64,000 nucleotides of DNA from an uncultured Carboxylicivirga sp. GTDB lineage: Bacteria > Bacteroidota > Bacteroidia > Bacteroidales > Marinilabiliaceae. A model generated the notes under the pieces. It was given only the letters and a program-made list of their open reading frames with translations, was not told the origin of the DNA and ran no database searches. The translations under genes were made by a program, and so were the position numbers. Below, piece by piece: positions 15,466-55,243 of this stretch. The first letter of the stretch is position 1, and every line of letters starts with the position of its first letter. The stretch is taken from NCBI RefSeq assembly GCF_963668385.1, contig NZ_OY764327.1, positions 2,728,001 through 2,792,000 on the forward strand, given 5' to 3'.

Positions 15466-15592
15466 AACGGCTCGAATATTGGGTGTTTGATATTCTAAAT
15501 ATCATGACTGTCAGTTTGCTATATGTTTTGTTAAATGCTGCCATGTTAAAATTTAGTACTATGCACCAAATGACCTATATTTATTTTATGTT
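15466..15592 (-). repeat. attC-like site 1 (degenerate)
   Basis: Begins AACGGCTCGAATATTGGG and ends gacctatatttattttatGTT, resembling the site at 46575. The outward arm GTTttttttcG has no partner, because the far end of its cassette is fused to another unit near 15.9-16.26 kb. Confidence 0.6.
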
Positions 15593-15699
15593 TTTTTTCG
15601 ATATATATTCATGTAAATATCAAAATTCTTAATCGTATAAAAAGGGTATAGAACAATTTTTGAACAATACTGATAAATCAATTGCTCTACACCCAATGT

Positions 15700-15891
15700 T
15701 TAATCTTTATACCTAAATCTCAAAAATAAATATGGAATAATCGGCAAAAACCAACCGATTAAGACCCATAATGCAATTAATTTGTTGGCATTAACCTTAT
15801 ATGTTTTATAGCATAGGAATGAGGTCATAATACCTAATATAGCGTATAAACTTATAAATATTTTAAAACCTAAAGTAGTATAAAATGACAT
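15700..15891 (-). CDS. Small two-helix membrane protein
   Basis: 63 residues with two hydrophobic segments (about 8-28 and 38-56) joined by a short basic loop (YKTYKVNANK), ending in a basic tail. The pattern is close to small PLDc_N-like or phospholipase-D-nuclease-N-terminal membrane proteins (IALWVLIGWFLPIIPYLFL), but I cannot assign it firmly. It is the gene of the degenerate leftmost attC. Confidence 0.55.
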   Translation of the reverse strand: MSFYTTLGFKIFISLYAILGIMTSFLCYKTYKVNANKLIALWVLIGWFLPIIPYLFLRFRYKD

Positions 15892-15903
15892 AATTGTAAT
15901 ATT

Positions 15904-16092
15904 TTAGTACACATCATCAACATCAAAAACATGCCTAACAATTGAAACACCTCCGCATGTTACCACATTAAAATTAGGCAAAAACCACCAGTAATCAACA
16001 CAATCCGTAAATTCTTCATAATAATGTCCATTCGTTGATTTCAAACTTGAAAAAAGAGTAAAATCTTTTTGTCGGTCAGAATAAATTAAAGT
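15904..16092 (-). pseudogene. Start-less C-terminal gene fragment
   Basis: An open stretch of 62 codons between an in-frame TAG (16093-16095) and TAA. It encodes a protein-like sequence (SLKSTNGHYYEEFTDCVDYW ... VVTCGGVSIVRHVFDVDDVY) but has no ATG. Its upstream end merges into the non-coding cassette sequence that is also found at 34.3 and 44.0 kb. It is probably the tail of a cassette gene fused to another cassette by deletion. Confidence 0.5.
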
Positions 16093-16262
16093 CTAGATTT
16101 GAACGTTTTGTAAATATTATATTTTGTTCACGTTTGAAAATCAATTTCAAAAAGCACACAAGTCAGTCAAGTTAATAGTTTCAAGTTCAGTGAATCTTTC
16201 AAAACCCAATAGCTAAACATACAAATTAAGCAACACTTCGTTAACTTACCGCAATAAGCTGC
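16057..16262. repeat. Partial third copy of a repeated non-coding cassette
   Basis: About 200 bp nearly identical to 34301-34521 and 43963-44182, ending in the same arm (caaTaagctgcAAC). The left half of the cassette and its attC are missing here. Confidence 0.7.
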
Positions 16263-16386
16263 AACGTTTGCTGGATGAAGTCGTGGCGCGTTAGTCGTGG
16301 TGTCGTGTCACCCGATAGGGGGACTAAGACGGTAGACTAAAGTGTCAGGACGAGCCGACCGAGCCATGCTTTATTTCCAGCGTGTT
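16263..16386 (-). repeat. attC site, main family
   Basis: AAC, GCTGGA and TGGCGCG arms on the left; CGAGCCA, TCCAGC and GTT on the right. Outward arm GTTagttgctG pairs with cTtgcaactAAT before the next site. Serves the gene ending at 16345, whose last 14 codons lie inside it. Confidence 0.85.
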
Positions 16387-16872
16387 AGTTGCTGGGCTTT
16401 TCTTGATAATTTCTATTATTGCTTTTTTAAAATTCACTCTACTACCAAATCTATTATATATTCTTTTAGTGTCATTGGAGTATACAATAATCATTCTATC
16501 TGATTCTGAAAATCCTCCGTGTCCAGCTTGCCCTAACAAAGTCTGAATTATTAATTGAATCCAATTAGTAGAACCTTCGGAATAAGAGACAGAATTTATG
16601 TCACTCAAATTGAATTCATTATAATCGTTCAGTTTTTGTATTAATCCTCGTTTTTCAATTATAAATCTGTTCTCAAATAATATAAGTCTTGGAAATCTAA
16701 TGTTTATTAGTCCAAATATGGCTGCAAAGGTGATCGGTAACGAAATAATCCCAACGAATTTTATTGAATATAATGACAGTAGAGTTAAGGATGTCAAAAG
16801 GATAATTGCAAAGTATCGATAATAGTTCTGTCCTCTTAATACATAATATGGTTTTGTAGAAGTTTGTTTCAT
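16345..16872 (-). CDS. Membrane protein with PH-like domain
   Basis: 175 residues from the ATG at 16872; the open frame begins 12 codons earlier inside the neighbouring attC remnant, which is an unlikely start. Two membrane segments (about 20-60) precede a soluble domain with FPRLILFENRFIIEKRG and DINSVSYSEGSTNW, reminiscent of bacterial PH domains. The C-terminal tail (ATNTLEIKHGSVGSS) is encoded by the attC itself, so the original stop may have been lost at insertion. Function unknown. Confidence 0.65.
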   Translation of the reverse strand: MKQTSTKPYYVLRGQNYYRYFAIILLTSLTLLSLYSIKFVGIISLPITFAAIFGLINIRFPRLILFENRFIIEKRGLIQKLNDYNEFNLSDINSVSYSEGSTNWIQLIIQTLLGQAGHGGFSESDRMIIVYSNDTKRIYNRFGSRVNFKKAIIEIIKKSPATNTLEIKHGSVGSS

Positions 16873-16910
16873 ATGAATTTTTTTTTGTAGGGCATTACAG
16901 CCTTGCAACT

Positions 16911-16959
16911 AATGGTTGCAGGACGAGCAAAGCGCGCCATGCTTTATTTCCAGTGGGTT
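16911..16959 (-). repeat. attC site with internal deletion (main family)
   Basis: Only about 49 bp: a mutated left end (AAT for AAC), then directly the right part (aggacgagcaaagcgcgcca ... TCCAG ... GTT). Outward arm GTTagctaccG pairs with aTggtagctAAC at 17556. The missing left arm should prevent normal folding. Confidence 0.75.
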
Positions 16960-16961
16960 AG

Positions 16962-17525
16962 CTACCGTTTTTTATTTATTCTATCTGATTTTCCTTTTCT
17001 TAGCTCTATTTCATTACCATTCAAGTCATATGTTTTGATATCAAAAATCATCTGCTTGATACTCGTTAGCGTGTCATGATTAAAAATAAGTCTCCTATTT
17101 TCAATAACCTTGGAAAATGTTGTATCTGTCTTAAACTTTAATAATCTAGTGTAAATATCAATTGAATCAGATTGATATGAAGTTAGAGAAACTGAGTCAA
17201 ATTGATTTGGACAATCGCATTTCCATTTTTGTTCAAATTCCTCGATTTTAGTTTGTTGATTTACAGAATCAGATAACCACATAAGTTCTAATGTAGTCTT
17301 AAGTTGATTTGAATTATATTCTATTGAATCTAAATCTGATATATCAATAGGAAAGGCCTGATTTCTGATTCTAAAATCAATTATTTTTGCTCTAAGTATC
17401 TTTTTACATGAGTCTTGCTGCACATATTGAATTATTCCTGAACTTATGTCTTTAAACAGCGGTTCAAGCAACGCTCCGCAACTTGTCATCATTACAACTA
17501 AAAATAAGGTTATAAATACTCTCAT
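16962..17525 (-). CDS. Cassette lipoprotein, paralogue of the 31.0-31.5 kb gene
   Basis: 187 residues from the ATG at 17525 with a lipobox (FLVVMMTSC). The mature part has CKKILRAKIIDFRIRNQAFP followed by DISDLDSIEY. This parallels CEESLISIIFTKRFAELKFP-DNIDQLEHIDW in the lipoprotein at 30974, with similar length and a similar C-terminal beta-rich stretch. The two are likely distant paralogues carried by separate cassettes. The molecular role is unknown; an outer-membrane location is inferred from the signal. Confidence 0.65.
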   Translation of the reverse strand: MRVFITLFLVVMMTSCGALLEPLFKDISSGIIQYVQQDSCKKILRAKIIDFRIRNQAFPIDISDLDSIEYNSNQLKTTLELMWLSDSVNQQTKIEEFEQKWKCDCPNQFDSVSLTSYQSDSIDIYTRLLKFKTDTTFSKVIENRRLIFNHDTLTSIKQMIFDIKTYDLNGNEIELRKGKSDRINKKR

Positions 17526-17555
17526 TAATGATTCTGCATTTTTTGAATGGTAGCT

Positions 17556-17678
17556 AACGAGCAGCTGTATGAATAGTTTGGCATTTCGAAGCACATAAGT
17601 TTCAGTTTACAACAAACATAATTAAAAGCTAATACCTTCGCAAACCACTGTCCGCCAAATTATTTATGACAGCATGTT
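17556..17678 (-). repeat. attC site (divergent family)
   Basis: Starts AACgagcagctgtatgaat and ends tatttatgacagcatGTT, with an inner tttggcatttcgaagc ... gtccgccaaat pairing. Outward arm GTTgccagtaG matches aTtaacggcAAC before 18609 less perfectly than most. Its cassette carries the two genes at 17691-18548. Confidence 0.7.
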
Positions 17679-18608: not shown

Positions 18609-18795
18609 AACGACCAGGCTATGAAGCGTAAGTGAACATTAACCAGAAATCACTTTCGAACTTTGCGGAGCCAAAACGTTGGATTTGTTTTTATCTTTTT
18701 CATTTCAAAAGCCAAATCAACGATTTGGCGTTGCTCGCCGAAGCCACGAACCAACCAAAATGAGTCGGCTCACTTATGCTTTATGAGCCATTGTT
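18609..18795 (-). repeat. Long attC site with inner hairpin
   Basis: 187 bp, with an inner hairpin GCCAAATC-aac-GATTTGGC at 18711-18729. Outward arm GTTgtacccaG pairs with aTtgggtacAAC at 19431. Serves the gene at 18805. Confidence 0.8.
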
Positions 18796-18804
18796 GTACC
18801 CAGT

Positions 18805-19356
18805 TTATTCTTTATAAATTTTTCTCTTTTCATTTTTTTTCTTTGTCTTAAAAGCTCTTTTAACATCATGCAGGTTATAAAGACCTTTCTTAACTGAATT
18901 CTCTAGATTAAACCTTAAGTCTGAAATTCGTTGATAATACTTTTTTCCTATCAATTCCATTTCTTCTCTCGATTTGCCATGCACATGATTATTCAGATTG
19001 AAAAATAAATGGTTTAACTTCTCAAGTTGTTTTACTGTTTCATCGTCAATCCATAAACTGTAAGCAATTGCAATAAACAAGTTCTGCTGATATTCAATAA
19101 ACTTAGTTTCACCTTCATTAAAAATCATATGGTATGCTTTACCATCACTATCCATCGCGTCACCTTTCAGAACAGCAATTTGGTTCTCAATATGTTGATA
19201 AGCCGATAGTCTCTTTTTTAAGATTTCTTTATAGTACTCTGTCTTAAAGTCATATTTCTTAAGTTTTAATGTAGTGAAATATGAAACTATTGCAGAAACC
19301 AATCCTGCAATAACAGAACTTGTCAAAATAATTTTAATCAATTCTATTTGTTGCAT
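18805..19356 (-). CDS. Single-pass membrane protein with helical domain
   Basis: 183 residues: one N-terminal membrane helix (IILTSSVIAGLVSAIVSYFTT), then a long helical, charged domain (KKYDFKTEYYKEILKKRLSAYQHIENQIAVLKG). A similar layout is seen in many accessory-region proteins annotated only as hypothetical. It ends in a very basic tail. It is the sole gene of its cassette; function unknown. Confidence 0.6.
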   Translation of the reverse strand: MQQIELIKIILTSSVIAGLVSAIVSYFTTLKLKKYDFKTEYYKEILKKRLSAYQHIENQIAVLKGDAMDSDGKAYHMIFNEGETKFIEYQQNLFIAIAYSLWIDDETVKQLEKLNHLFFNLNNHVHGKSREEMELIGKKYYQRISDLRFNLENSVKKGLYNLHDVKRAFKTKKKNEKRKIYKE

Positions 19357-19430
19357 TGAAGTTTATTGTCTTTTGCTTTAATATAATCTATTTCAAATAT
19401 CTTCTAATGTGCTACGTCAAAATTGGGTAC

Positions 19431-19499
19431 AACGGCTCGGCTATGCGCAGTGTGCCTGTGTTGCGCCTGCGGCAGGCATATTGCGTATTAGCCATTGTT
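19431..19499 (-). repeat. Short attC site
   Basis: 69 bp: AACgGCTcGGCTA ... TAGCCatTGTT with a GC-rich inner stem (gcgcctgcggcaggc). Outward arm GTTaggttttcG pairs with caTgaaacctAAC before 21533, one extra base bulged. It closes a three-gene cassette. Confidence 0.75.
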
Positions 19500-19514
19500 A
19501 GGTTTTCGTGCTTT

Positions 19515-19949
19515 TTAATCAAATGTCACTATTTCAATTGTATTATTATCGCACTCCTTATGATATGCATCAGTTTTAATTAGTTCCATACCATCTGTTA
19601 AATACGGTTCGATTTTATCGTGTATTTTTGCAAGTATTTCAAACACATCATTATTATCATAGTTGTCGCAAAACCAAACATTTACCCAAACAGTTTTAGT
19701 ACGAGTTTCAATTTTAGAAAGTAAATGAAAAGGAATTAATTCAAGATTACTAATAAATTCATTCTCTTCAACTAGAACATGAACATTCTTAGTACTTTTA
19801 GTGAGTTGCGTCAAATCTGCTATATCAACACTTATTATTCCATATGAAAATACATTTCTAATTAAAGACTCTAATGCATTCTTCAACTTTTGATTAGAAA
19901 TTGAATTACAAACAATGTTATCATTAAATACTTTCTCTACAGTCCACAT
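19515..19949 (-). CDS. Unknown protein, third gene of a three-gene cassette
   Basis: 144 residues with no signal peptide, soluble and acidic (MWTVEKVFNDNIVCNSISNQKLKNALESLIRN). I see no known motif. It lies 9 bp downstream of the UDG-like gene and shares its cassette, so it may be a partner or immunity factor; that is only inferred from position. Confidence 0.5.
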   Translation of the reverse strand: MWTVEKVFNDNIVCNSISNQKLKNALESLIRNVFSYGIISVDIADLTQLTKSTKNVHVLVEENEFISNLELIPFHLLSKIETRTKTVWVNVWFCDNYDNNDVFEILAKIHDKIEPYLTDGMELIKTDAYHKECDNNTIEIVTFD

Positions 19950-19958
19950 AGCTTACAA

Positions 19959-20810
19959 TTATTGATGAATAATAATCTCTTCTGCTATCTTTGGAATCAA
20001 TTTCTTCCAATCCTTTGTTTGATTTCTACTAAATCCGATTACTGGGTATTCCTTTTCTTTAATCTTTTTATTTTTAAATATAACATCTGTATTAGGTCTC
20101 CAATAATCTGTAAAATCTTCAAAAGCTTCTTTACCCATACACACAATCAATTTAGGTTGAACAAGACTCACCAAATCATTCATTTTCCGTATAAAAAACC
20201 TTTTAACAGTCTTTTCACAAATAGATTTATCATCTTTTTTATGTTGCTTCCAAAGTTCTTGTAGCTCTTTTTCATCTGCGAGCAATTTATGAATAGCTTT
20301 TAAATCTTTTGTATCGGTAGTTGATATAGGATATAAATTTGTATACATTATATTTTGACCAAAGTTATCATACCAAAATGGTAAAGAATTGTCACTATAT
20401 CCTTCCTTTCCATATTTTTCTGGAAATCTTAACCTACCAAGTTCATACAACAAGTCAATACTATTAGCTACAAAGGAATTATTACTAGTTTTATTTCTTT
20501 GGTACCATGCTGATTTTTTCCTTGCATTTCCTGTTTCATACCAATTCAAACGCTCCATATCTCTTTCATATTCCCCAATCATCCTTAATACAGGCTTGTT
20601 ACTATTTTTTTTATATGCACCAGGGCCTGGATTAATAGCAATAAATAAAATTTCAGGTTGATAAATAATAGGGCTTTGAACTGTCATAATTCCCTTATAG
20701 AGTTTTTTATACTCATCTTGAGTATAGTTTTTTTGTAGAAACTTCTTTATTGGTAAAATTGAGTCCTCAAGTTCCTTATAGTTTTCCTTAAGTTGGTTGT
20801 CTATAATCAT
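19959..20810 (-). CDS. Uracil-DNA-glycosylase-superfamily protein
   Basis: 283 residues with UDG-fold signatures. ILFIAINPGPGAY (residues 54-65) holds the first catalytic-type loop. QPKLIVCMGKEAFEDF is the strand followed by the glycine turn, and YPVIGFSRNQT is in the place of the second active-site loop. Asparagine 60 is in the position used for catalysis in several UDG families. The specificity (uracil, xanthine or none) cannot be told. The gene sits between a protein phosphatase-like gene and an unknown gene in one cassette, so a DNA-modification or anti-phage role is possible but unproven. Confidence 0.7.
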   Translation of the reverse strand: MIIDNQLKENYKELEDSILPIKKFLQKNYTQDEYKKLYKGIMTVQSPIIYQPEILFIAINPGPGAYKKNSNKPVLRMIGEYERDMERLNWYETGNARKKSAWYQRNKTSNNSFVANSIDLLYELGRLRFPEKYGKEGYSDNSLPFWYDNFGQNIMYTNLYPISTTDTKDLKAIHKLLADEKELQELWKQHKKDDKSICEKTVKRFFIRKMNDLVSLVQPKLIVCMGKEAFEDFTDYWRPNTDVIFKNKKIKEKEYPVIGFSRNQTKDWKKLIPKIAEEIIIHQ

Positions 20811-20821
20811 TCTGTTTTATT

Positions 20822-21493
20822 TTAATCAATATTTTCCTGAAATGTCAGTTCCATTTTATTTAATTCTACACAGCATAAATTTCCATATTCTGCTTCTCCT
20901 TTCAAATAGCATCCATTATCAATATTAAGTACTTTTGTAGTAGGAAAATTTTGCAACATTTTTTTTATTTCATATTTCTTCTTGGGGATATGCCCATGGA
21001 TAATCTTTCTACTTTTAAGCCATTCATAATTTATAGATTTATACCAATCAGTAATCCAACAAACACTTCGTATATCTTCAATTGGATTATTAATCTCAAA
21101 ATTTAAACCTGCATGAACAAAGATAAATTCATTATTAACGCTTAAAGATTTTAGGTTGCTAAACCATTTTATATATTTTGGATTTAATTGATTCAGATGT
21201 TTAATGTTAAAACTCTTTAAGGTTTCTTTTGCTCCTGCAGTCCATCCATCTAACTCAATTGAATCAAAAACCATTTCTTCATGATTACCTTTTAATGCAA
21301 TTATGTTATATCCTTGGCTTTGCAGTTCAATTATATAATCTACTACTTGTTTACTTTTAGAACCCCTATTAATAAAATCACCTAAAAGATAAAGCTCGTC
21401 ATTTTTTGATAAACTAATCTTGTTTAATAACTCTTTAAATGTCAGTGCACATCCATGTATATCGGAAATAGCATATTTATTAGCTCCTATCAT
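20822..21493 (-). CDS. Calcineurin-like metallophosphoesterase (PrpA/ApaH-like)
   Basis: 223 residues with the full metal-binding set: D11-I-H13 (SDIHG), G-D39 (LLGDFINRG), G-N70-H71-E, H127 (FVHAGL) and GH168 (HGHIP). This is the pattern of bacterial PP2B-type serine/threonine phosphatases and diadenosine tetraphosphatases. It is first in the three-gene cassette, 11 bp ahead of the UDG-like gene. Substrate is unknown. Confidence 0.85.
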   Translation of the reverse strand: MIGANKYAISDIHGCALTFKELLNKISLSKNDELYLLGDFINRGSKSKQVVDYIIELQSQGYNIIALKGNHEEMVFDSIELDGWTAGAKETLKSFNIKHLNQLNPKYIKWFSNLKSLSVNNEFIFVHAGLNFEINNPIEDIRSVCWITDWYKSINYEWLKSRKIIHGHIPKKKYEIKKMLQNFPTTKVLNIDNGCYLKGEAEYGNLCCVELNKMELTFQENID

Positions 21494-21532
21494 TCGAGTA
21501 TTTTTTTATGTACTGCTGAGAGCATGAAACCT

Positions 21533-21656
21533 AACGTTTGCTGGATGAAGTCGTGGCGCGTTAGTCGTGGTGTCGTGTCACCCGATAGGGGGACTAAGAC
21601 AGTTGACTAAAGTGTCAGGACGAGCCGACCGAGCCATGCTTTATTTCCAGCGTGTT
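21533..21656 (-). repeat. attC site, main family
   Basis: 124 bp. Outward arm GTTagcccttGttg pairs with caaTaagggctAAC before 22162, 13 of 14 bases with G opposite T. Serves the gene at 21673. Confidence 0.9.
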
Positions 21657-21672
21657 AGCCCTTGTTGTTTTA

Positions 21673-22113
21673 TTAATAATCTAAAAATGTTGCAACACGA
21701 ATAATGTCTGCATAATTGTCAAGTAGACTTATTTCTGAAATAAATTCAGATTCCGTCATTAATTTCAAATTCGTAATGGGATACAGATGCTTGGTCTTAG
21801 AAATAATTTTTCTTTTTAATTCATCCAATGAAATCTGAATACCACTATTTGTCGTACTGAAAATAACTTGTAACCTTGATTGTCCAAAAAATTTAAATAA
21901 AGGCCCTGTCTTACTTAAAATTTTATGGGTAATTATTTTGATATAATACCCATTGCTGTCAATTAAGATTCTTTTGTAATGCTTGTCAAGATCATTTTCA
22001 TTAATATGATGAATTGCATCTTTTTCTTCTTCTAAAATCTCTACAAATCCTTTTTCCCCATTGAAAACCCAATCTGTAAGTTCGATCAATGGATATTTTA
22101 TTTCACTAGTCAA
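21673..22113 (-). CDS. Unknown soluble cassette protein
   Basis: 146 residues, no signal or membrane segment (MTSEIKYPLIELTDWVFNG). The sequence alternates strands and charged helices and includes the stretch GPLFKFFGQSRLQVIFSTTNSGIQISLDELKRKI. No family recognised. Single-gene cassette. Confidence 0.55.
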   Translation of the reverse strand: MTSEIKYPLIELTDWVFNGEKGFVEILEEEKDAIHHINENDLDKHYKRILIDSNGYYIKIITHKILSKTGPLFKFFGQSRLQVIFSTTNSGIQISLDELKRKIISKTKHLYPITNLKLMTESEFISEISLLDNYADIIRVATFLDY

Positions 22114-22161
22114 TTATTTTCAATATTTATGAAATGAACGTTTGGTTATTCAATAAGGGCT

Positions 22162-22285
22162 AACGTTTGCTGGATGAAGTCGTGGCGCGTTAGTCGTGGT
22201 GTCGTGTCACCCGATAGGGAGACTAAGACAGTAGACAAAGGCGTCAGGACGAGGCGGACGAGCCATGCTTTATTTCCAGCGTGTT
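22162..22285 (-). repeat. attC site, main family
   Basis: 124 bp; the variant interior carries agggagactaagacagtagacaaaggcg. Outward arm GTTggtggttGtaa pairs with ttaTaaccaccAAC before 23216. Confidence 0.9.
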
Positions 22286-22298
22286 GGTGGTTGTAATT

Positions 22299-23189
22299 TT
22301 ATTTCCAGAAATAATTCAACGTCCGTAATGAGTCTAAAAGGTCATTTTTGACCCCTAATTCTTTATTTAATTCACTAAATACATTATTTAGTTCAAGAGT
22401 GTCACCAAAATAGTATCCGTATAAATAGTTAATGTATAGGCTATTATTAAGTTCCTTTTCTTTTAGTAATACGGATGCAAAAGTAGTGTCACTAATTTCG
22501 TATGCTAAATTTATTCGCTTTAAACTAATAGCATTTCCAACTGAATGAGTGCTTGGAACCTCATACAAAATTTCAAGCGCTCTAAGAGAATCGCCGTAAC
22601 CAAGGTACTTTTCTGATTGAATCAGACTACCATTAGCCTGTTGTCTTTCTTTGGAAACTGCGGTATATTTTGTGTTCAGTTTTAAAAAGTTTTCTAGATT
22701 ATCACTTTGCCAAAATTCATCTCTGTATGAATAATAGTCAGATAATTTCGGAACACTGTCTTTAAGTTCAATTCTATATTTCCAAAAGTCAACATTTTTA
22801 TCAAATGTCATCGAATATATAATTTCAACATGGCGTGGGTAATATATTATCTTAGATAGTTTTAGGTTGCCATTATTGAATTTTAATTTGTTTATAAGGT
22901 CGATATTTACATAGTAAACTTGTTTGCCAATTTCTTCTTCAAAAAAATGGTTTAGTAGATTCCGTTCAATCTTATTTGAGGTCTTTACTCTTCTTTTAAA
23001 CAGCTGATTGTCCCAGACTTTCTCTATTAATTCATACTCGTAATTGTTAAGGCTTTTCGTTAATGTAAAAGCAAAGTCCTTAATTGTCTGTTTTTCTATC
23101 TCAGTTAAAGGAATTACCTCTTTTACTCTATCCTTACTGTTGTTACATGATATTAGAAGAGTGAATACTCCTATAATAAAAAACCTCAT
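22299..23189 (-). CDS. Cassette lipoprotein of unknown function
   Basis: 296 residues with a lipobox (VFTLLISC, Cys15). The mature protein begins with an acidic helix (EIEKQTIKDFAFTLTKSLNNYE), continues with beta-rich sequence, and ends in helices that resemble degenerate TPR-like units (YGDSLRALEILYEVPSTHSVGNAISLKRINLAYE). No named domain. The outer-membrane lipoprotein location is inferred from the signal. Confidence 0.6.
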   Translation of the reverse strand: MRFFIIGVFTLLISCNNSKDRVKEVIPLTEIEKQTIKDFAFTLTKSLNNYEYELIEKVWDNQLFKRRVKTSNKIERNLLNHFFEEEIGKQVYYVNIDLINKLKFNNGNLKLSKIIYYPRHVEIIYSMTFDKNVDFWKYRIELKDSVPKLSDYYSYRDEFWQSDNLENFLKLNTKYTAVSKERQQANGSLIQSEKYLGYGDSLRALEILYEVPSTHSVGNAISLKRINLAYEISDTTFASVLLKEKELNNSLYINYLYGYYFGDTLELNNVFSELNKELGVKNDLLDSLRTLNYFWK

Positions 23190-23215
23190 ATTCTGCGTTT
23201 TTTTTTATAACCACC

Positions 23216-23942: not shown

Positions 23943-23964
23943 GCGGTGTATTTCAATAGGCTAT

Positions 23965-24087: not shown

Positions 24088-24101
24088 ACCGCCTGTTTGT
24101 T

Positions 24102-46697: not shown

Positions 46698-46699
46698 AC

Positions 46700-47596: not shown

Positions 47597-47624
47597 ATGT
47601 ATGTCGTTTCTTAAAATGTTAGGT

Positions 47625-47748
47625 AACGTTTGCTGGATGAAGTCGTGGCGCGTTAGTCGTGGTGTCGTGTCGCCCGTTAGGGGGACAAAGACAGTAGACT
47701 AAGGTGTCAGGACGAGCAACGCGCGCCATGCTTTATTTCCAGCGTGTT
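47625..47748 (-). repeat. attC site, main family
   Basis: Variant cgcccgttagggggacaaagacag interior. Outward arm GTTatgccctGtt pairs with aaTagggcatAAC before 48271. Confidence 0.9.
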
Positions 47749-47801
47749 ATGCCCTGTTGTTTTTATGTTATTAAAAAAGCAAAGATTGAAATTTTCTCTG
47801 A

Positions 47802-48215: not shown

Positions 48216-48270
48216 AGTTGTTTTAGGTTAGATTTTATTACTCTTGATTAATTATTCTCTAATAGGGCAT

Positions 48271-48458
48271 AACGGTGAGTATAAGAAACGTAAGTGATTT
48301 CGAAGCTCTTACCTATCAAGTTGCACTGAGCCAAATTTGCGTTTTGACACAAATTTAAAATATTAAACAAACCCGTCAAATCGCAGATTTGGCGGAGCTA
48401 AATAAATGCTCAAAAGCTTCGTAAACCACTGAGCCACTTATGTTTTTTATACATTGTT
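48271..48458 (-). repeat. Long attC site with inner hairpin
   Basis: 188 bp with inner hairpin GTCAAATC-gca-GATTTGGC. Outward arm GTTggcggtaGtt pairs with aaTtaccgccAAC before 49523. Confidence 0.8.
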
Positions 48459-48466
48459 GGCGGTAG

Positions 48467-49426
48467 TTAATATAGTTCTTGTATTATTTTGTTTTCTTTA
48501 ATATCTATTTTAATTATTATTTTTTCTCTTGACCCCACAAGTATATACTTATCATCAAGGCTAATATCAAAACACTCTAATTGTAAATTATTCGTGTTTA
48601 ATACTTTTAAAACTTCTCTGGTTTTAGAATTGAATACAACCATTTTTCTATCCCAACTTATTGATATGAAAGAGTTCTCATTATTTAGATATTTTAGCTG
48701 CAACACTGAACTTTTATGATATGGGATTGAACCTTTATTATTCCCAGTGTTCAAATCCCATACTTTTATAAGCCCATCAGATCCACTTGAAATAAACTCA
48801 TCTGAAAAAGGACTTATGGCAACTGTTAGAACATTTGAACTATGAGCTGTATATGTGTGTTTTTTTCTTGTATTCAAATCCCATATATCTATTTTACCAC
48901 CCATCAATCCAGCAACCAATTTATCTTCATTTTTTGAAATAGCCATTGATAAAATTCGGTCACTTGCATATAGTGTATAGAATAAAGAATAATCTAATAC
49001 ATTCCAGATTGATATTATTCCGTCTTCGCTGCAAGAATATAGATATTTGCCCTGATTACCATAAACTACTTGTCTAACAATTGAATTATGATTATCTAAT
49101 TTTGTTTTTATTTTATTTGTACCAACGTCATAAATTAGTATTGTTTTATCCCAAAAACCACAAGCAAATGAGCTATTATCTTTTGAAAAAGCTAAACTCA
49201 TAGCTATTTTATTAGAATCTTGAATAGCTAAAAGTTGATTACAAGTCTTAGTATCCCACAATTTTATAGTATTATCAAAACTTGATGACAGAGCTCTGCT
49301 ACCATCCTGATTGAAAATAATAGCTGTAACTTTATCTGAATGAGCTGTCTTTTTATTAAGCTCCTGTCCCCTGAGTATAAGTAAAGATGAAAGGAAAATT
49401 GTTATTAAAAATAGTTTTTTTACCAT
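48467..49426 (-). CDS. Secreted WD40-repeat protein
   Basis: 319 residues, signal peptide MVKKLFLITIFLSSLLILRGQ, then about seven WD40 blades (TAHSDKVTAIIFNQDGSRALSSSFDNTIKLWDTKT, SCSEDGIISIWNV, HSSNVLTVAISPFSDEFISSGSDGLIKVWDLNTG and others), enough for one closed propeller. WD40 propellers are protein-binding platforms; here it would be periplasmic or surface-exposed. Single-gene cassette. Confidence 0.85.
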   Translation of the reverse strand: MVKKLFLITIFLSSLLILRGQELNKKTAHSDKVTAIIFNQDGSRALSSSFDNTIKLWDTKTCNQLLAIQDSNKIAMSLAFSKDNSSFACGFWDKTILIYDVGTNKIKTKLDNHNSIVRQVVYGNQGKYLYSCSEDGIISIWNVLDYSLFYTLYASDRILSMAISKNEDKLVAGLMGGKIDIWDLNTRKKHTYTAHSSNVLTVAISPFSDEFISSGSDGLIKVWDLNTGNNKGSIPYHKSSVLQLKYLNNENSFISISWDRKMVVFNSKTREVLKVLNTNNLQLECFDISLDDKYILVGSREKIIIKIDIKENKIIQELY

Positions 49427-49522
49427 AAATCAATATTTTATCAAAATCATATAAAAATATATAGACCATTTTATTTACTCATCATATCCACACTTTAAAT
49501 TTGGCACCCCTGAATTACCGCC

Positions 49523-49646
49523 AACGTTTGCTGGATGAAGTCGTGGCGCGTTAGTCGTGGTGTCGTGTCACCCGATAGGGGGACTAAGACAGTAGACAAA
49601 GGCGTCAGGACGAGCAACGCGCGCCATGCTTTATTTCCAGCGTGTT
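49523..49646 (-). repeat. attC site, main family
   Basis: Outward arm GTTaccgcctGttt pairs with aaaTaggcggtAAC before 50065. Heads a gene-less cassette. Confidence 0.9.
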
Positions 49647-50064
49647 ACCGCCTGTTTATTTTGCTTGTATTTAGCTTATCGTTAATAATATCAGGTCAAT
49701 TCCAAATATTATAGTGTCAGAATTGATAAAAGTCCTATGAATTAATGCACACTTCGTGTCCCTTAGTCCCAAAATAGGTTAGGTTGTTGGTCAGGCTAAA
49801 TTTAACAAAAAAACACACTTTTGAAATTCTATTTTTGATTATGGTCATTAATTTAAAGTCTGTCTAGATTTGATAATGGGAGAGAAGATGTATTAAAAGT
49901 CCTGAAATATAGTTGCTCAAAATGTCATTTATTAAAATTTCAATTTACTTGAAGTCAGAAAATAACGACAGAAGGTTAATCAAGTTGAACTATTCTAAGC
50001 GAAGTCTGAATTGTAAGTTTTTATTGGCGTTATGTTTTTGGTACGTTTTGCCTAAATAGGCGGT
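49647..50064. other. Gene-less cassette
   Basis: 418 bp with matching end arms and no credible frame on either strand. Short elements (aaagtcctatgaatt, aaagtcctgaaat) echo the agtcct motif of the gene-less cassette at 37694. No terminator or clear promoter is seen. Confidence 0.5.
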
Positions 50065-50187
50065 AACGTTTGTTGCAAGAAGCGTAGCAGAATCACGGTG
50101 ATTGCCGTCCGCAGGACGATTAAGCAATCTGCGCGATTCTGTGATGATCCAAGACCATGCATACTGCTATGATTTTTGCAACGTGTT
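50065..50187 (-). repeat. attC site (own family)
   Basis: AACgtttgTTGCAAgaagcgtaGCAGaatcacgg ... aTACTGCtatgatttTTGCAAcgtGTT. Outward arm GTTatgcgctG pairs with tTagcgcatAAC before 50645. Confidence 0.8.
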
Positions 50188-50644
50188 ATGCGCTGCCGGT
50201 TTTGTTATTTAAATTATTAATCGTTCTTAAAATCTGGTTAAACCTATTGAGATCCCGACACACTTCCCAAAACAGCCAACTATTAAAGCACCTCACCATT
50301 TTTGGCCAAATTTATGCAAAAGATCAGAGGCCCAACTAAACTTCCAAACTAAGCAATTTGCAAGTCAGAAGGAGCGGGGCGGCCATTTGTTTAACCGAGT
50401 GTGCTGACAATTTATACAACAGCTTAAACAGCCCGTAAATGTTGATGAGCACACTTTCAAAATTATGCGAAATCCTAATAAAGATGTTTAGCCGAGAGCG
50501 TTTCAAAAACAGGAAATGCTTGATAACCTAAATTGCCTAAATAATTAAGCTTGCGCGATGGCCGTGGGCTGCGCAAATTCATCTTTCGCCCGACTTTCGT
50601 AAAAAATCCTCCCAATAGTCATTGCTGTTCGTCGGTTAGCGCAT
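50188..50644. other. Gene-less cassette of higher GC
   Basis: 457 bp without a credible gene. It has a noticeably more GC-rich texture than its neighbours (gcgcgatggccgtgggctgcgc, ggagcggggcggcc). Ends match as cassette arms. It may be a decayed gene captured from a different background. Confidence 0.45.
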
Positions 50645-50767
50645 AACGTTTGCTGGATGAAGTCGTGGCGCATTAGTCGTGGTGTCGTGTCACCCGATAG
50701 GGGGACTAAGACGGTAGACTAAGGTGTCAGGACGAGCAAACCGAGCCATGCTTTATTCCAGCGTGTT
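50645..50767 (-). repeat. attC site, main family
   Basis: Right part gcaaaccgagccatgctttaTTCCAGC. Outward arm GTTacgccctGttg pairs with caaTagggcgtAAC before 51207. Confidence 0.9.
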
Positions 50768-50921
50768 ACGCCCTGTTGGTTTTTTGTTTCAAGTTAGTTT
50801 AATTTCCCAATTGGACATAATTCTCCCACTTAGGTTCCTTGTAATTATTCGATCAAATTATTGTCCGAATATACAAGTTAGTCCGTGTTTATTGAGCTGG
50901 TCTCGCTCTTATATATCAAAT

Positions 50922-51149
50922 CTATTTTATTCGTTTTGCTCTACGATCTAAATTTTGTTTTTCAGAACGTTTTTGTCTGAAGTCCTCTAATTTAATTTTC
51001 GAACAAAGCTTATTAAACTGGATTTCTTTGTCTAATTCAGTCTGTATTATTTTTCGAGTTTTTGCGAGTCCTGCTGGTTGTCCTGTTGATGTATTAATTT
51101 CAATTTTATATGCTGGTTTTCTCCGTCCGTCCGACTTTTGAGAATTCAT
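50922..51149 (-). CDS. Small basic protein
   Basis: 75 residues, strongly basic and helical (MNSQKSDGRRKPAYKIEINTSTGQPAGLAKTRKIIQTELDKEIQ ... QKRSEKQNLDRRAKRIK). Nucleic-acid binding would fit the charge, but no motif is recognised. It lies 155 bp from its attC, farther than most cassette genes, and that spacer looks empty. Confidence 0.5.
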   Translation of the reverse strand: MNSQKSDGRRKPAYKIEINTSTGQPAGLAKTRKIIQTELDKEIQFNKLCSKIKLEDFRQKRSEKQNLDRRAKRIK

Positions 51150-51206
51150 TCACGTCTGTTTTTATTTGTTAATGATTCTTATGCACTGAGTTTTACAATA
51201 GGGCGT

Positions 51207-51326
51207 AACGGCTCGAATATGCGTAGTGCGGGATTTCAAGGCACTTCACTGTCAAACCGCTACGCTTTTTATTAAATGCTTTAAAGTTCAATTTTGCCAC
51301 ATCACCCCGCATTACGTATATTTGTT
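51207..51326 (-). repeat. attC site, gctcgaatatgcg family
   Basis: Nearly identical to the site at 28185 and the left part of that at 38689. Outward arm GTTgggcgtaGtat pairs with ataTtacgcccAAC before 52258. The GIY-YIG gene ends within it. Confidence 0.87.
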
Positions 51327-52205
51327 GGGCGTAGTATTTAATTTATCGTCCTCTATTTCTTTAAGAGTTTTCCCATTATTATCCTTCCAAAAAATCCTAC
51401 CATTAACTGAATACCCAAGAATTACTGCACCTGCTTGAGACGGACTTGTAAATTCATAGTCTTGAATAAATTCGAATCCATTTTTTGTTTTTTCAATATA
51501 TCCCTTTTCAACTAAATCTTTTCTTATTTTAGAGTATGTTGGTGATAATGCAGGAGTCTCATTCTCTTTCATTATACTACCTTTTAGAACAAGTAATCCA
51601 TTTGAAATTAATTTAGAAGTAGCTTTTATTTCTCCAACTTCAAGAATTAGTTTATCATCTTTAGCTTTTGAACTTAATTTGACTGAACTGCTATTTGGTT
51701 TAAAGAAATCAAATCCCATTGATGGTAATAGAATTTTCATATTATCAAAATAGGTATCCATTTCATCTTTTACCATCTGAGGTAAGCTTATCTTATTACC
51801 ATCCTTCTTGTTTACTATTACATATCCCGACTTTTCAATTGTCTCTGAGAGTACTTTTGCTTCTAAGTATTTTGTATGTGAGACTGTCATGTTATCGTCT
51901 TTAGAACTGAATGCAATGATTAGTTCAAAAAATGATTTTTTTTCATCTCTCATATGAGCTGTTATTCTTTCGAAAAGATGGTTTGCTTCACCAATATATA
52001 CTAATGTCTCGTCAGGATTTTCCTCATTTGGTCCAATCAAGTAGTAAATGCCAGGTCTATTCAATTCATCAAATTCTTTCGCGTCAAAAAAGGAATTCCT
52101 AGGTATTTTAATGGCTTGACCTGTCCAATTTGAAACATAAGATAAGCTAATTCCCTCTGGATTTCCACTAACTAAATAGTTTGTTATTGTTATTCCTCTT
52201 TTCAT
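51312..52205 (-). CDS. GIY-YIG nuclease with DUF4357 domain
   Basis: 297 residues. GIY-YIG core: PGIYYLIGPNEENPDETLVYIGEANHLFERITAHMRDE, then the conserved Glu helix (SHTKYLEAKVLSETIEKSG). The C-terminal DUF4357 domain has LISNGLLVLKGS and FTSPSQAGAVILGYSVNGRIFWKDNNGKTL. This domain pair is widespread in accessory and defence-linked loci, and activity as a DNA endonuclease is expected. The final residues (LNTTPNKYT) come from the attC. Confidence 0.85.
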   Translation of the reverse strand: MKRGITITNYLVSGNPEGISLSYVSNWTGQAIKIPRNSFFDAKEFDELNRPGIYYLIGPNEENPDETLVYIGEANHLFERITAHMRDEKKSFFELIIAFSSKDDNMTVSHTKYLEAKVLSETIEKSGYVIVNKKDGNKISLPQMVKDEMDTYFDNMKILLPSMGFDFFKPNSSSVKLSSKAKDDKLILEVGEIKATSKLISNGLLVLKGSIMKENETPALSPTYSKIRKDLVEKGYIEKTKNGFEFIQDYEFTSPSQAGAVILGYSVNGRIFWKDNNGKTLKEIEDDKLNTTPNKYT

Positions 52206-52257
52206 ATTATTCTAATATTTCAAATGGTCAAATGTTTCGTGCACCCATATTACGCCC

Positions 52258-52380
52258 AACGTTTGGCATAAGACCAGTGGTGGATTTTGCGCAGATTTCG
52301 TGTCCGCCAGGACTAAGAAATCAAACAACAATCCGCCCGACCAAAACTATACCGAACCACCATTGGGTTTATGCTTTGTT
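52258..52380 (-). repeat. attC site (own family)
   Basis: AACgtttgGCATAAgaCCAGTGGTGGatttt ... CCACCATTGGGTTTATGCttTGTT. Outward arm GTTagttgctGttg-like end pairs with aTagcaactAAC before 52919. Confidence 0.8.
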
Positions 52381-52843
52381 AGTTGCTGTTATTTTTCAAC
52401 TTATGCCTTAAAATTTTCGATAATAATTTATAATAAAGTTCCCATAAGACAATTGTCGTCCAAATGCTGTATAAAAAATAATTCCATAGTCTTGAGCTCT
52501 CTGCAATTTTAGTAAAACAACTACTATGATAATTAATAGTCTCATTCACATAAATTTTGAAAGTCAATAATAAAATTGAAATAATGAATATTGGAGTAAG
52601 AAGCTTCCATCTTAAAATGCCAAAATGACTTGTTAAACTTTTACATATGTCATAATGAAGTTTAACAAATACTACTGGGAGTGTAAAAACTATCAATAGT
52701 AATCCATAATTCTTTTGTACGATTCCAAATAAGAAACCTATTCCCAATAAAATAAAAACACCAAAAATATAATTGATCACAGATCTGGTATATAACCTAA
52801 GTCTACTTATTAGTTCCATTATTTTCCATACTCTATTTGTCAA
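52379..52843 (-). CDS. Four-helix membrane protein
   Basis: 154 residues with four membrane segments (about 22-41, 46-62, 82-98, 122-140) and basic ends. An alternative start at Met9 (MELISRLRLYTRS) is equally possible. The stop codon overlaps the attC GTT. No family recognised. Confidence 0.5.
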   Translation of the reverse strand: MTNRVWKIMELISRLRLYTRSVINYIFGVFILLGIGFLFGIVQKNYGLLLIVFTLPVVFVKLHYDICKSLTSHFGILRWKLLTPIFIISILLLTFKIYVNETINYHSSCFTKIAESSRLWNYFLYSIWTTIVLWELYYKLLSKILRHKLKNNSN

Positions 52844-52918
52844 CTGTTAATATTAGTCGTAATCATTCTCAATATACTTCTTGAAAGATTATTCTCAATA
52901 ACGTCAGCAATAGCAACT

Positions 52919-53088
52919 AACGGTAATAATATGAGCAGTAGCGGACTATAAAGCGGTTTCGTATCAAGTTGCTAAGTAGCCAAAGCTGCACCTTATCTAA
53001 ATAGTCAAATCGGCAGATTTGGCGGGGTAACTTTGAAAAACTGCCGCCAGAACACCCACAGAAACCGCTATTGCTTATATTTAATGTT
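52919..53088 (-). repeat. Long attC site with inner hairpin
   Basis: 170 bp with inner hairpin GTCAAATC-ggca-GATTTGGC. Outward arm GTTggcggtaGtt pairs with aaTtaccgccAAC before 53989; the same arm occurs at 48456. Confidence 0.8.
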
Positions 53089-53109
53089 GGCGGTAGTTTT
53101 TCTATCATT

Positions 53110-53901
53110 TCAATATCCATCAATATGTCTTCGTTGAAAATTCAATTCAAGTTTATCTGGGTGGGGATAAACAATATACATTGGTTTGTCTGGATATTTA
53201 GTTGCAAAAATAGACTCTATAAGGTTAAAAACAGTTTCGTTTTCATCAAATAATCTATGTCCGATATAAATCGCTTTTATTGTAATCGGTTTATAAAAAG
53301 CTATTCTGTTGTATTTAATTTCATCATCAACTTGGGTAATAATTCTCCATTCTTTTTCATACTTCCAATTGGCTGATTTTGCAGTAAGAAAGTATTCCTT
53401 AGCAAAGGGTGCTGTGTTTTTAACTTTAATGAAGTTATTAAAATATAAAACAGGGTTTAAGGACTTTTTTCTATTCGAGGGGGCAAGATTTACTTGTATA
53501 TGTTCTGTATTTACTTCTAAGGCAAATCCAAAATAGTTATTTGCATAATGTGCCCACATTAAAGGTTCATTTATTTCTTCAGTAAAGCATGTTACACCAT
53601 AGTCAGAAATTCTATTGCCTTTTTGGGAATAATATTTCTCACGATATTCTTTACTTTCAAATTCTACTAGATTACTATTACAATCAAAAGGGTCATTAAA
53701 GTCTTTGGGATTGGATAACCAGAAATAATTTTCATGTAGTGAAGCAATACTTAAGAGATTTGTGTCAAAAAATTTAAAGAGCTTTTCTGGTCTTAATGGA
53801 AATGGTTTATTGTCTTTGTGGATATGCATTCGATTTAAATCTGAATCAAATACGTATTTATATTTACTATTTATAATTATTTCCTTTTCCATAAGATTCA
53901 A
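53110..53901 (-). CDS. DUF2971 protein
   Basis: 263 residues with the DUF2971 pattern: LFKFFDTNLLSIASLHENYFWLSNPKDFNDPFDCN at the start, YGVTCFTEEINEPLMWAHYANNYFGFALEVN in the middle and WKYEKEWRIIT later. DUF2971 proteins are soluble and of unknown activity, and they turn up often in phage, plasmid and defence regions. Single-gene cassette. Confidence 0.85.
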   Translation of the reverse strand: MNLMEKEIIINSKYKYVFDSDLNRMHIHKDNKPFPLRPEKLFKFFDTNLLSIASLHENYFWLSNPKDFNDPFDCNSNLVEFESKEYREKYYSQKGNRISDYGVTCFTEEINEPLMWAHYANNYFGFALEVNTEHIQVNLAPSNRKKSLNPVLYFNNFIKVKNTAPFAKEYFLTAKSANWKYEKEWRIITQVDDEIKYNRIAFYKPITIKAIYIGHRLFDENETVFNLIESIFATKYPDKPMYIVYPHPDKLELNFQRRHIDGY

Positions 53902-53988
53902 TTACTTCTAATTGGTTTTACTGGTATATGAATTAGAATTACCTTTTTTTAATAATTTTAATTCATTGCAACTGGGTTAATTACCGCC

Positions 53989-54110
53989 AACGGTGGCAAT
54001 ATGCGGAGGCCGGGATTTCGAAGCTCCAACCTATCAAACCGTTACAATTTTTATTAAATGTACAAAGGTTTAAATTACCTACATCCCCCGGCTTACGTAT
54101 ATTGCGTGTT
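53989..54110 (-). repeat. attC site, ggcaatatgcggagg family
   Basis: Near copy of the site at 29137. Outward arm GTTagtgcctGtgc pairs with gcaTtggcactAAC before 55124. Serves the two-gene cassette at 54123-55111, the most proximal one. Confidence 0.87.
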
Positions 54111-54122
54111 AGTGCCTGTGCT

Positions 54123-54644
54123 TTATTCATCAAGGTCATAAAGTTTATAAGGATAATCTCTTACAAATCCCCAATCTTTGTCATCACTTATATTATCCTC
54201 TAATTTATGAATATCATATTTTTCTTTAAGTTCTGTCAGGTTAGTTTTGTAATCAAAATCAGCCCGTAAATAGAACCAATAATTTCTTTCTCCACCATAG
54301 GTTTCAATTAGAAATATAAATCCCTCTTTTTTAAAATCGAAAAGATTACAAATTTCACCGTCAAATCCTTCCAATGTCTTATTATAATCAGATTGTGGTA
54401 ATCCATTAGATTTTACTTTATCCAGTTTATGTGTAATATTTAAGAGTCTGGGATACTGTAACTGATATTGTGAAATATTGTCAATATTGGGCTTTCTTAA
54501 ATATAAAGGCAAATCCTCATATGTTATGTCCATTGTTGACCAAGTCATATTATCTATATTTTTTTGGTTTTGACAATTACAAATCAAGCTGCTATTAATC
54601 AACAGGGTAAAAACAAAAAATCTAAATCTTATTAATCCCACCAT
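54123..54644 (-). CDS. Secreted protein of unknown function
   Basis: 173 residues with an N-terminal signal (FRFFVFTLLINSSLICNCQ; the Cys before Gln may alternatively be lipidated). The mature part contains MDITYEDLPLYLRKPNID and a C-terminal FIFLIETYGGERNYWFYLRADFDYKTNLTELKEKY, which resembles DUF695-like or related beta-alpha domains. It overlaps the upstream lipoprotein gene by 13 bases, so the two are probably coupled. Confidence 0.55.
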   Translation of the reverse strand: MVGLIRFRFFVFTLLINSSLICNCQNQKNIDNMTWSTMDITYEDLPLYLRKPNIDNISQYQLQYPRLLNITHKLDKVKSNGLPQSDYNKTLEGFDGEICNLFDFKKEGFIFLIETYGGERNYWFYLRADFDYKTNLTELKEKYDIHKLEDNISDDKDWGFVRDYPYKLYDLDE

Positions 54645-55111
54645 GCACTTATAACTTTAAAATCATCTGGTAAATCAGGAGCATTTATCGGCTTAGTATC
54701 ACCCCAACCTTCATATAACTCATCAGGCATTAAATCTTTTAATAAAATCTGCAATTCTACTTTTGAAAGCGAGGTCACTATATAAACATTATCTGTGTAT
54801 GCCCAATCACCATCATTAATATCTGCAATACGAACATAAATATTATCAACAGAGTCGAGTTGTCTAATTTCTTTAAATTTTAAGTAAAAATCTGATGGAG
54901 AAGGTTGATGCGGATAAAGATTTACTCCAATCGAACCATAATCGTGGTTTCCCTCAAAGAAATCCTCAAGTGTTACAAGAATTTCATTATCTGGATATCC
55001 GAGTAATTCTATTTTCTCAAACAACTTATCTTTTTTACTCATACAACTTGAATTAATTATTATCAATCCAATAATCAGAATCAGTTTATTTATTTGCAGT
55101 ATCGTTCTCAT
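54632..55111 (-). CDS. Cassette lipoprotein, most proximal gene
   Basis: 159 residues, lipobox LIIINSSC (Cys23). A DUF-like domain follows with PDNEILVTLEDFFEGNHDYGSIGVNLYPHQPSPSDFYLKFKEIRQLDSVDNIYVRIADINDGDWAYTDNVYI, and the protein ends GWGDTKPINAPDLPDDFKVISAWWD. It is the first gene read from the array's attI-side end. No function can be named. Confidence 0.6.
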   Translation of the reverse strand: MRTILQINKLILIIGLIIINSSCMSKKDKLFEKIELLGYPDNEILVTLEDFFEGNHDYGSIGVNLYPHQPSPSDFYLKFKEIRQLDSVDNIYVRIADINDGDWAYTDNVYIVTSLSKVELQILLKDLMPDELYEGWGDTKPINAPDLPDDFKVISAWWD

Positions 55112-55123
55112 AGCATTGGCACT

Positions 55124-55243
55124 AACGGTTTTGCGGTATTAACCGTAGCCCTGTTTTTATTTGTTACCATTTGCTTTGATTTGGTTAGTTTTCAACAGTT
55201 TACCGAGATTCTGATTTTGATATAATACCGCATTTTCCTAGTT
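55124..55243 (-). repeat. Palindromic site at the proximal end (attC- or attI-like)
   Basis: AACggtttt-GCGGTATTA ... TAATACCGC-attttccta-GTT, about 120 bp. Its left AAC is the normal start of the first cassette's partner (ggcactAAC). The outward right side (GTTttgggata) breaks the array rule: position 11 is A, not G. This is expected if the sequence to the right is not a cassette but the primary site or an inserted element. Confidence 0.55.

Follow-up and report, generated by a model that had tools for sequence, protein, structure and literature searches.

A near-invariant G·T pair in the complementary cassette ends of a putative integron-like array from Carboxylicivirga

We analysed a cassette array in a stretch of 64,000 nucleotides (the window) from an uncultured Carboxylicivirga sp. 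of the phylum Bacteroidota (RefSeq assembly GCF_963668385.1, contig NZ_OY764327.1, positions 2,728,001 to 2,792,000 of the forward strand) and found that the two ends of a cassette pair with each other over an arm of 14 base pairs that carries one fixed wobble: in 43 of the 44 cassettes the 11th pair is a G opposite a T. The array and its relatives elsewhere probably represent an integron-like system of the Bacteroidota with folded, wobble-marked sites, whose recombinase would most likely be of the kind that we call IntX, with its gene heading a different array of this genome, and not the integrase P0001 that is encoded beside the array in the window. The coordinates of all features are collected in Table 1.

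The array was parsed into cassettes that each run from the right GTT of a site to the AAC at the far end. A first chain search was too strict and gave 11 cassettes and a second one admixed chance pairs, so the 44 GTT...AAC cassettes of the window were curated by hand; a script supplied the cassettes from other loci. Two stretches of the array in which no cognate arm pair was recognisable (~15590-16266 and ~17673-18605) were excluded before counting. The GTT arm of every cassette was then aligned to the reverse complement of its AAC arm, with 2000 re-dealings of the arms to other cassettes as the null. The typical alignment shows ten matches, one G against A (i.e. G opposite T on the plus strand), about three further matches and then nothing. 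Watson-Crick pairs were found at positions 4-10 in 292 of 308 cases (re-dealt mean 106.7, standard deviation 9.4, maximum 146), at position 11 in 1 of 44, at positions 12-14 in 107 of 132 (re-dealt mean 61.9, maximum 77) and at positions 15-20 at chance level (53 of 264, versus 55.0 re-dealt), and it is because of this profile that we describe the arm as 14 base pairs with a single fixed wobble. A preliminary description of the array, made by eye, had reported the complementarity within cassettes, its extension past seven bases and the bias at position 11, all of which are borne out by the computed alignments; it had also held that G is opposite T without exception (44 of 44), and here the near-invariance stands and the count becomes 43. 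The 43 cases comprise 29 direct ones, eight in which position 10 is not a Watson-Crick pair (seven T·T and one T·G) and six with one bulged T, the same number of bulged cases as had been seen by eye. The G and the T are each nearly invariant on their own arm. The sole cassette that misses the pair is cassette 26 (38814-40499), next to a site of which ~10 nt remain.

The extent of the mobile unit was deduced from near-identical cassettes that are shared by the window array and another array of the same genome. For copies beside a right-hand site of another type the identity ends 1-5 nt right of the AAC, and for copies beside a right-hand site of the same type it continues for 16-49 nt past the AAC. 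On the left side, all copy pairs alignable from end to end have identity that reaches into the site body, in some free of mismatches up to 120-122 nt and in others with earlier mismatches; a rare body type accompanies its cassette (50185 and L054 241). Judged from these copies, the mobile unit consists of a ~120-nt site body followed by GTT, gene and AAC, with the putative crossover at AAC|G, to within a few nucleotides. The limits of identity place both arms inside one unit, so that the arms of one cassette meet only in the circular form; in the array the arms on either side of a site come from different cassettes. Site types vary greatly in sequence with the fold retained, and the units recur in different arrays of the genome. 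The layout is that of integron cassettes, with the minus strand as the coding strand.

Folds were computed with DNA parameters for those 86 of 105 cassettes that have a neighbour 60-260 nt to the left. The plus strand is more stable in the circle form than in the array form by 7.5 kcal/mol on average (lower in 81 of 86), which, together with the copy boundaries, agrees with the earlier suggestion that the extended stem exists only in excised circles. On the plus strand, two or all three of the AAC:GTT pairs are formed in 86 of 86 circle structures versus 51 of 86 array structures. The plus strand also folds better than the minus strand, with a mean of -6.3 for the circle forms (better in 85 of 86) and of -5.2 for the array forms (better in 84 of 86). 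Taken by themselves, the outer arms account for a mean of -1.16 kcal/mol toward the plus strand, which they favour in 94 of 105 cassettes. The inner stem, formed by the site body, has G·T wobbles of its own: among 37 dissimilar sites a left G is opposite a right T at 11-12 nt after the AAC in 30, at 16 in 18 and at 17 in 11, and the reverse orientation (left T, right G) is rare by comparison. In addition, the right strand of the inner stem is bulged in 19 of the 37 sites, in nearly all cases 7-8 nt ahead of the GTT. The sites thus resemble attC sites in their variable sequence, their AAC/GTT ends and, according to the fold energies, a single strand that is foldable.

The same rule was recovered in other arrays. 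In 12 other array loci all 61 cassettes carry the G·T pair (a reversed-sequence control gave 2 matches versus these 61), and in a wider set of 40 loci, including the window, there were 232 candidate cassettes, 223 of them with the pair (182 of 191 when only distinct arm pairs are counted); one mismatch was allowed in this set, which makes the letters of bulged bases unreliable. The nine misses include three (L117 1879, L119 8039, L154 9294) that resemble chance pairs without bounding sites and were kept in the count. A further 20 loci, taken from elsewhere in the phylum, gave 68 candidates, of which 64 have the pair, and the rule is seen at 15 of these loci, at five of them on a single cassette each; the reversed sequences gave 24 matches, 2 of which with G·T.

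The arms with a bulge are informative on the register of the pair. We aligned the 191 distinct arm pairs without scoring pair 11, as the strict sorting accepts a bulge only with a G·T after it, which leaves its 25 bulged arms uninformative on this point. A one-base bulge in the GTT arm was wanted by 26 arm pairs, the bulged base being T in 24 of them, and 24 of the 26 have G·T at the 11th pair, although their G stands twelfth when nucleotides are counted. Of the remaining two, one has A-T there (L156) and one is probably a chance pair (L119). In the strict sorting of distinct arms, position 10 is T·T in 34 further arms and T·G in two, and G·T follows in each. The spacing is thus preserved in base pairs rather than in nucleotides, so that the simplest assumption is a feature that is read once the strand has folded. 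This register is the strongest hint that a folded strand may be what is read, since a reader of duplex DNA has no cause to count pairs between ends that lie hundreds of bases apart.

In the mechanism that we propose, a cassette would be excised as a circle, of which the plus (bottom, non-coding) strand would fold into a long hairpin, and the body and the ends of this folded strand would together make up one recombination site of double-stranded appearance. The outer arm (GTT, seven variable pairs, the G·T and three more pairs) would serve as one half-site of the recombinase and the inner stem, often with its own G·T ~11-12 nt inside the AAC, as the other, so that the two half-sites may each present a G·T at a like distance. 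The recombinase, most likely an enzyme of the IntX kind at array heads rather than the integrase at 55278, might read the wobble as a sign that the DNA is folded and that the strand is the correct one, because the top strand would present an A·C instead. The data fit the earlier suggestion that the wobble could mark the recombinogenic strand, and marking of the folded bottom strand is its most likely use.

The best rival, which we consider unlikely, makes the wobble passive, i.e. a fixed weak spot that acts against extrusion of, or a replication block by, the long inverted repeat, or that eases strand opening, without any contact to the recombinase. A G·T near the outer end of a 14-bp stem indeed limits its stability, the optional T·T or bulged T next to it weakens the stem more, and the unpaired flanks beyond are T-rich (GTT-arm position 16, two nucleotides past the stem, is T in 178 of the 191 distinct arms). 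A passive role, however, has no need for one orientation and one exact pair in 182 of the 191, as other mismatches would serve, nor for an inner stem that repeats G·T pairs with one strand preference. It is less probable still that position 11 belongs to a binding motif in double-stranded DNA (GTT-N7-G at one end and GTT-N7-A at the other) that distinguishes the two ends without any folding. The near-invariance of both bases, each on its own arm, would suit such a motif, but the seven flanking bases vary and yet covary, positions 12-14 covary as well, and a bulge displaces the G on just one of the arms, by one nucleotide, with the register in pairs kept in the 24 of 26 arms described above.

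IntX is a tyrosine recombinase of 489 amino acids (genome 2984834-2986300, minus strand), encoded ~200 kb from the window array by a gene that is co-directional with the cassettes of its own array and lies ~40 nt from the last AAC. It has SAM_4 and Phage_integrase domains, with Arg I present and no inserted domain, like the simple Xer-like tyrosine recombinases (PMC8138268), from which it differs in that it adjoins cassette arrays. In an alignment the IntI-specific insertion is absent from 17 of 17 IntX rows, and likewise from the Xer-like rows of this genome, and present in 4 of 4 IntI rows, two of which are nearly identical; by eye, the C-terminus of IntX (KSPLD-like) is similar to that of IntI. 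In a tree of 24 rows the IntI sequences (3 rows) are grouped at 100/99, and the Xer-like YR_L001 and YR_L002 of this genome lie outside the IntX group. Rule-bearing arrays lie beside IntX at 38 of 51 loci (the present one, 9 of 10 near relatives, 13 of 20 loci of the order and 15 of 20 of the phylum), 11 of these 38 being based on a single cassette; among the 13 misses six have less than 2.1 kb of contig and one 3.5 kb, and those six are among the seven order-level misses. An AAC-TnnTCTGT-like sequence is, by eye, common to the flanks of several IntX genes and is a candidate counterpart of the attI that lies by the integrase gene in IntI integrons. IntX-like genes were detected in 128 of 393 genomes of the order (E ≤ 1e-50) and in 93 of 395 genomes of the phylum (E ≤ 1e-55), the arrays having been checked for part of these genes. 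As a separate observation, many IntX genes appear by eye to lie ~150-500 bp from a contig end on the expected array side, as if repeated sites had broken the assemblies. In the genome at hand, the window array (A) and three others (B, C, D) lie on one strand between ~2743 and 2985 kb with three gaps of ~50 kb: the first holds the P0001 element described below, the second contains DNA related to it (~68-78%), and the third has a P0001-like integrase at its left end. We think that these arrays may be a single large one, headed by IntX and split by insertions.

P0001 was the candidate first favoured as cassette recombinase, since rule-bearing arrays lay upstream of its relatives, and was dropped because it heads an element inserted in a cassette site. 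Its Phage_integrase and Phage_int_SAM_5 domains score above their cut-offs and Arm-DNA-bind_5 just under (E 0.00034, 21.5 bits, cut-off 22.6), and Asn replaces the usual Arg I (7 of 7). Its arm-binding, SAM-like core-binding and catalytic domains, the Bacteroidota hosts and the replaced Arg I are those of the IntCTnDOT integrases, and integrases like it are known from mobile elements of the Bacteroidota (PMC8138268); it departs from them in that its element inserts at AAC|G of cassette sites. The genes of this element follow in the order integrase, HTH_17, DUF4406, DnaG-like primase and N6_N4_Mtase DNA methylase (from 62998). The surroundings of P0001, up to ~8.3 kb, recur at 92-96% DNA identity in four other genomes (L068-L071; one of the same genus and three not), the identity beginning no more than ~15 nt from AAC|G. 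For G006, the genome of the same genus, both ends and the part of the contig at 30-50 kb are mostly 91-97% identical (15.7-30 kb being left out of the comparison) and the element spans ~49 kb; at the right junction the element end meets a site body beginning GGTTTGCGGTATG in both genomes. An element is thus inserted at AAC|G of a cassette site and P0001 belongs to it, so that P0001 is best regarded as the integrase of a mobile element that targets cassette sites.

That the array is instead an integron run by this IntCTnDOT-type enzyme is, in our estimate, slightly less probable again than the duplex motif. P0001 adjoins the array, 10 of 19 loci of its subfamily have rule-bearing arrays directly upstream, and the edge of the element lies at AAC|G. 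It nevertheless heads a ~50 kb element that is closely similar in G006 in the parts compared, array cassettes lie past the right junction, where a site body is restored, and IntX adjoins arrays in the absence of P0001. Moreover, no convincing array was found at 13 loci of distant P0001 homologues (L103-L115); L110 has one candidate with G over A at position 11, but its neighbours are unlike sites. A scan of viral contigs gave only four distant integrases (22-25% identity).

The closest known systems are the sedentary chromosomal integrons (Vibrio type, IntI and attC), which share with the present one the cassette arrays, the hairpin sites bounded by AAC...GTT, the unit boundary at the AAC/GTT triplet, the bottom-strand bias and the pairing of the ends past seven nucleotides. 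For the last property the preliminary description had assumed that R'' and R' of known cassettes complement each other over about 7 bases; the published figure for IntI cassettes is 9-11 paired nucleotides (PMC2727003), so that pairing beyond seven is not new and the fixed G·T is the part for which we found no report. Among the titles and abstract openings listed by searches of an open-access library, preprints not included, we met neither a G·T rule for attC sites nor a non-IntI integron of the Bacteroidota. As a small control, a Vibrio gangliei plasmid with two IntI integrons supplied nine cassettes, hand-picked from a longer script list to match annotated genes; their ends pair over 7-12 nt, and the G·T at position 11 occurs in none of the nine. 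The present system differs further in having no IntI and a recombinase without the IntI-specific domain: no IntI was detected above the curated cut-off (TIGR02249) in the genome itself or in 13 others of the genus. Neither the absence of IntI nor the origin of P0001 from a mobile element had been anticipated in the preliminary description. An Rfam search gave nothing at gathering scores. The least likely alternative is an ordinary IntI integron after loss of its integrase, i.e. a cluster of attC sites lacking the integrase (CALIN; PMC9024848): the architecture is the same, the arrays have no IntI, and a true IntI exists in an order-level relative (G030) and in G043, but the arrays look recently active (same cassettes in several arrays) and yet 14 of 14 genus genomes examined lack IntI, a non-IntI recombinase is often found at the array head, and the IntI cassettes examined have no G·T.

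Of the features by which IntI-type integrons are recognised, the tandem cassettes of an open reading frame with a terminal site are present and an IntI with its specific domain is absent. As that additional domain is treated as defining for IntI integrons (PMC9668308), the system is not filed as an IntI-family integron, though it would work like one, and a published integron finder that requires a tyrosine recombinase plus the IntI-specific domain (same source) would miss it. Bacteroidota are among the phyla listed with integrons (PMC8618304), and another study (PMC9024848) gives In0 in its earlier survey and, for Bacteroidetes, one complete IntI integron, in Salinibacter ruber. Going a step further than the integron-like reading itself, one may tentatively regard the system as a second kind of integron, widespread in the Bacteroidota, in which an Xer-like recombinase without the IntI domain would recognise its folded single-stranded sites by G·T wobbles set at one helical position in each half-site, instead of by extrahelical bases as IntI does; we consider this possible, though short of probable. 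The system suggests a way in which a recombinase could distinguish folded single-stranded DNA from a duplex, and also the two strands from each other, by one conserved wobble; it indicates an extensive pool of mobile gene cassettes among the Bacteroidota and offers a test of how far integron function needs the IntI domain.

Several observations weigh against the reading of an IntX-type system with wobble-marked strands. The strand bias lies for the most part in the inner stem and not in the arms, because the array forms favour the plus strand nearly as often as the circle forms do, and the inner G·T is absent at 11-12 in 7 of the 37 dissimilar sites. Six plausible cassettes violate the rule (window 38814, L117 9225 and one each in L142, L146, L148 and L156), among them the bulged arm of L156 with an A-T at pair 11. 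As to the enzyme, the recombinase that physically adjoins the window array, as members of its subfamily adjoin others, is P0001; no rule-bearing array was found within ~15 kb of IntX in 5 of the 20 phylum-level loci and in L154; the IntX group of the tree is weakly supported (63/85); and we infer the membership of the window array in the IntX array 200 kb away from order and strand alone.

Table 1. Positions (in the window) of the array, its cassettes, an example site and the adjoining mobile element
Feature	Positions	Strand	Remarks
Whole cassette array	15466..55126	-	genes on minus strand; plus strand is the "bottom" strand
Cassette 1, GTT arm to AAC arm	16384..16913	-	final triplet AAT; T·T at 10, then G·T
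Cassette 2	16957..17558	-	G·T at 11; near-identical copy in L054
Cassette 3	18793..19433	-	G·T at 11
Cassette 4	19497..21535	-	bulged T, G·T at 11th pair
Cassette 5	21654..22164	-	G·T at 11; example in the preliminary description
Cassette 6	22283..23218	-	G·T at 11
Cassette 7	23336..23967	-	G·T at 11
Cassette 8	24085..24607	-	G·T at 11
Cassette 9	24789..25868	-	T·T at 10, then G·T
Cassette 10	25987..26654	-	bulged T, G·T at 11th pair
Cassette 11	26834..28187	-	T·T at 10, then G·T
Cassette 12	28302..29139	-	bulged T, G·T at 11th pair
Cassette 13	29256..30250	-	G·T at 11
Cassette 14	30370..30841	-	T·T at 10, then G·T
Cassette 15	30959..31598	-	mismatches at 9 and 10, then G·T
Cassette 16	31717..32193	-	G·T at 11
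Cassette 17	32312..33329	-	G·T at 11
Cassette 18	33445..34067	-	G·T at 11
Cassette 19	34186..34524	-	G·T at 11; copies at 43848-44185 and in L054
Cassette 20	34643..35425	-	G·T at 11
Cassette 21	35544..36190	-	bulged T, G·T at 11th pair
Cassette 22	36369..36841	-	G·T at 11
Cassette 23	36960..37571	-	T·T at 10, then G·T
Cassette 24	37691..38098	-	T·G at 10, then G·T
Cassette 25	38216..38691	-	G·T at 11
Cassette 26	38814..40499	-	sole exception without G·T; right-hand site truncated to ~10 nt
Cassette 27	40510..42484	-	G·T at 11
Cassette 28	42603..43150	-	G·T at 11
Cassette 29	43269..43729	-	bulged T, G·T at 11th pair
Cassette 30	43848..44185	-	G·T at 11; copy of cassette 19
Cassette 31	44303..44989	-	G·T at 11
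Cassette 32	45108..45494	-	G·T at 11
Cassette 33	45613..45959	-	G·T at 11
Cassette 34	46079..46577	-	bulged T, G·T at 11th pair
Cassette 35	46695..47627	-	G·T at 11
Cassette 36	47746..48273	-	G·T at 11; copy in L054
Cassette 37	48456..49525	-	G·T at 11
Cassette 38	49644..50067	-	G·T at 11; two copies in L054
Cassette 39	50185..50647	-	G·T at 11; copy in L054; same-armed cassettes in L093 and L116
Cassette 40	50765..51209	-	G·T at 11
Cassette 41	51324..52260	-	G·T at 11
Cassette 42	52378..52921	-	G·T at 11
Cassette 43	53086..53991	-	G·T at 11
Cassette 44	54108..55126	-	T·T at 10, then G·T; AAC adjoins mobile element
Example site body	21536..21653	+	between AAC and GTT, 118 nt (whole site 124 nt); folds into inner stem, moves with right-hand cassette
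Integrase P0001 of mobile element	55278..56597	+	Phage_integrase and Phage_int_SAM_5; Asn for usual Arg I
Left part of ~50 kb mobile element	55127..64000	+	follows an AAC; right junction lies beyond the window, near genome 2,833,150; apart from the cassette system proper

The mobile element beside the array, with cassette sites as its target, seems worth a separate study. DNA related to it separates other arrays of the genome, and directly after its primase gene lies a cluster of direct and inverted repeats of the TTACTTTAGTTACTT type (62399-62640), also present in L068-L070, which is possibly the replication origin of the element.

Other observations concern the contents of the arrays. A gene for a WD40-repeat protein (48467-49426) lies within cassette 37. 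Three equal-scoring copies of a tyrosine recombinase of 301 amino acids occur in or beside the arrays (genome 2911k, 2973k and 3729k; L054, L116 and L119), the L116 copy being followed by an IS91-like transposase (Y2_Tnp, Zn_Tnp_IS91; locus 3618-5491). Between two sites of L117 (13800-14330) short tandem repeats, by eye CTGTCAGTCTCAGGTACG-like units, are found instead of a clear gene. L116 contains, again by eye, two copies (1740-2190 and 10316-10790) of a segment of ~300 nt after an AAC, with TTCTAACTAGGC replacing the normal site start, and this segment is perhaps another small insertion at cassette sites.

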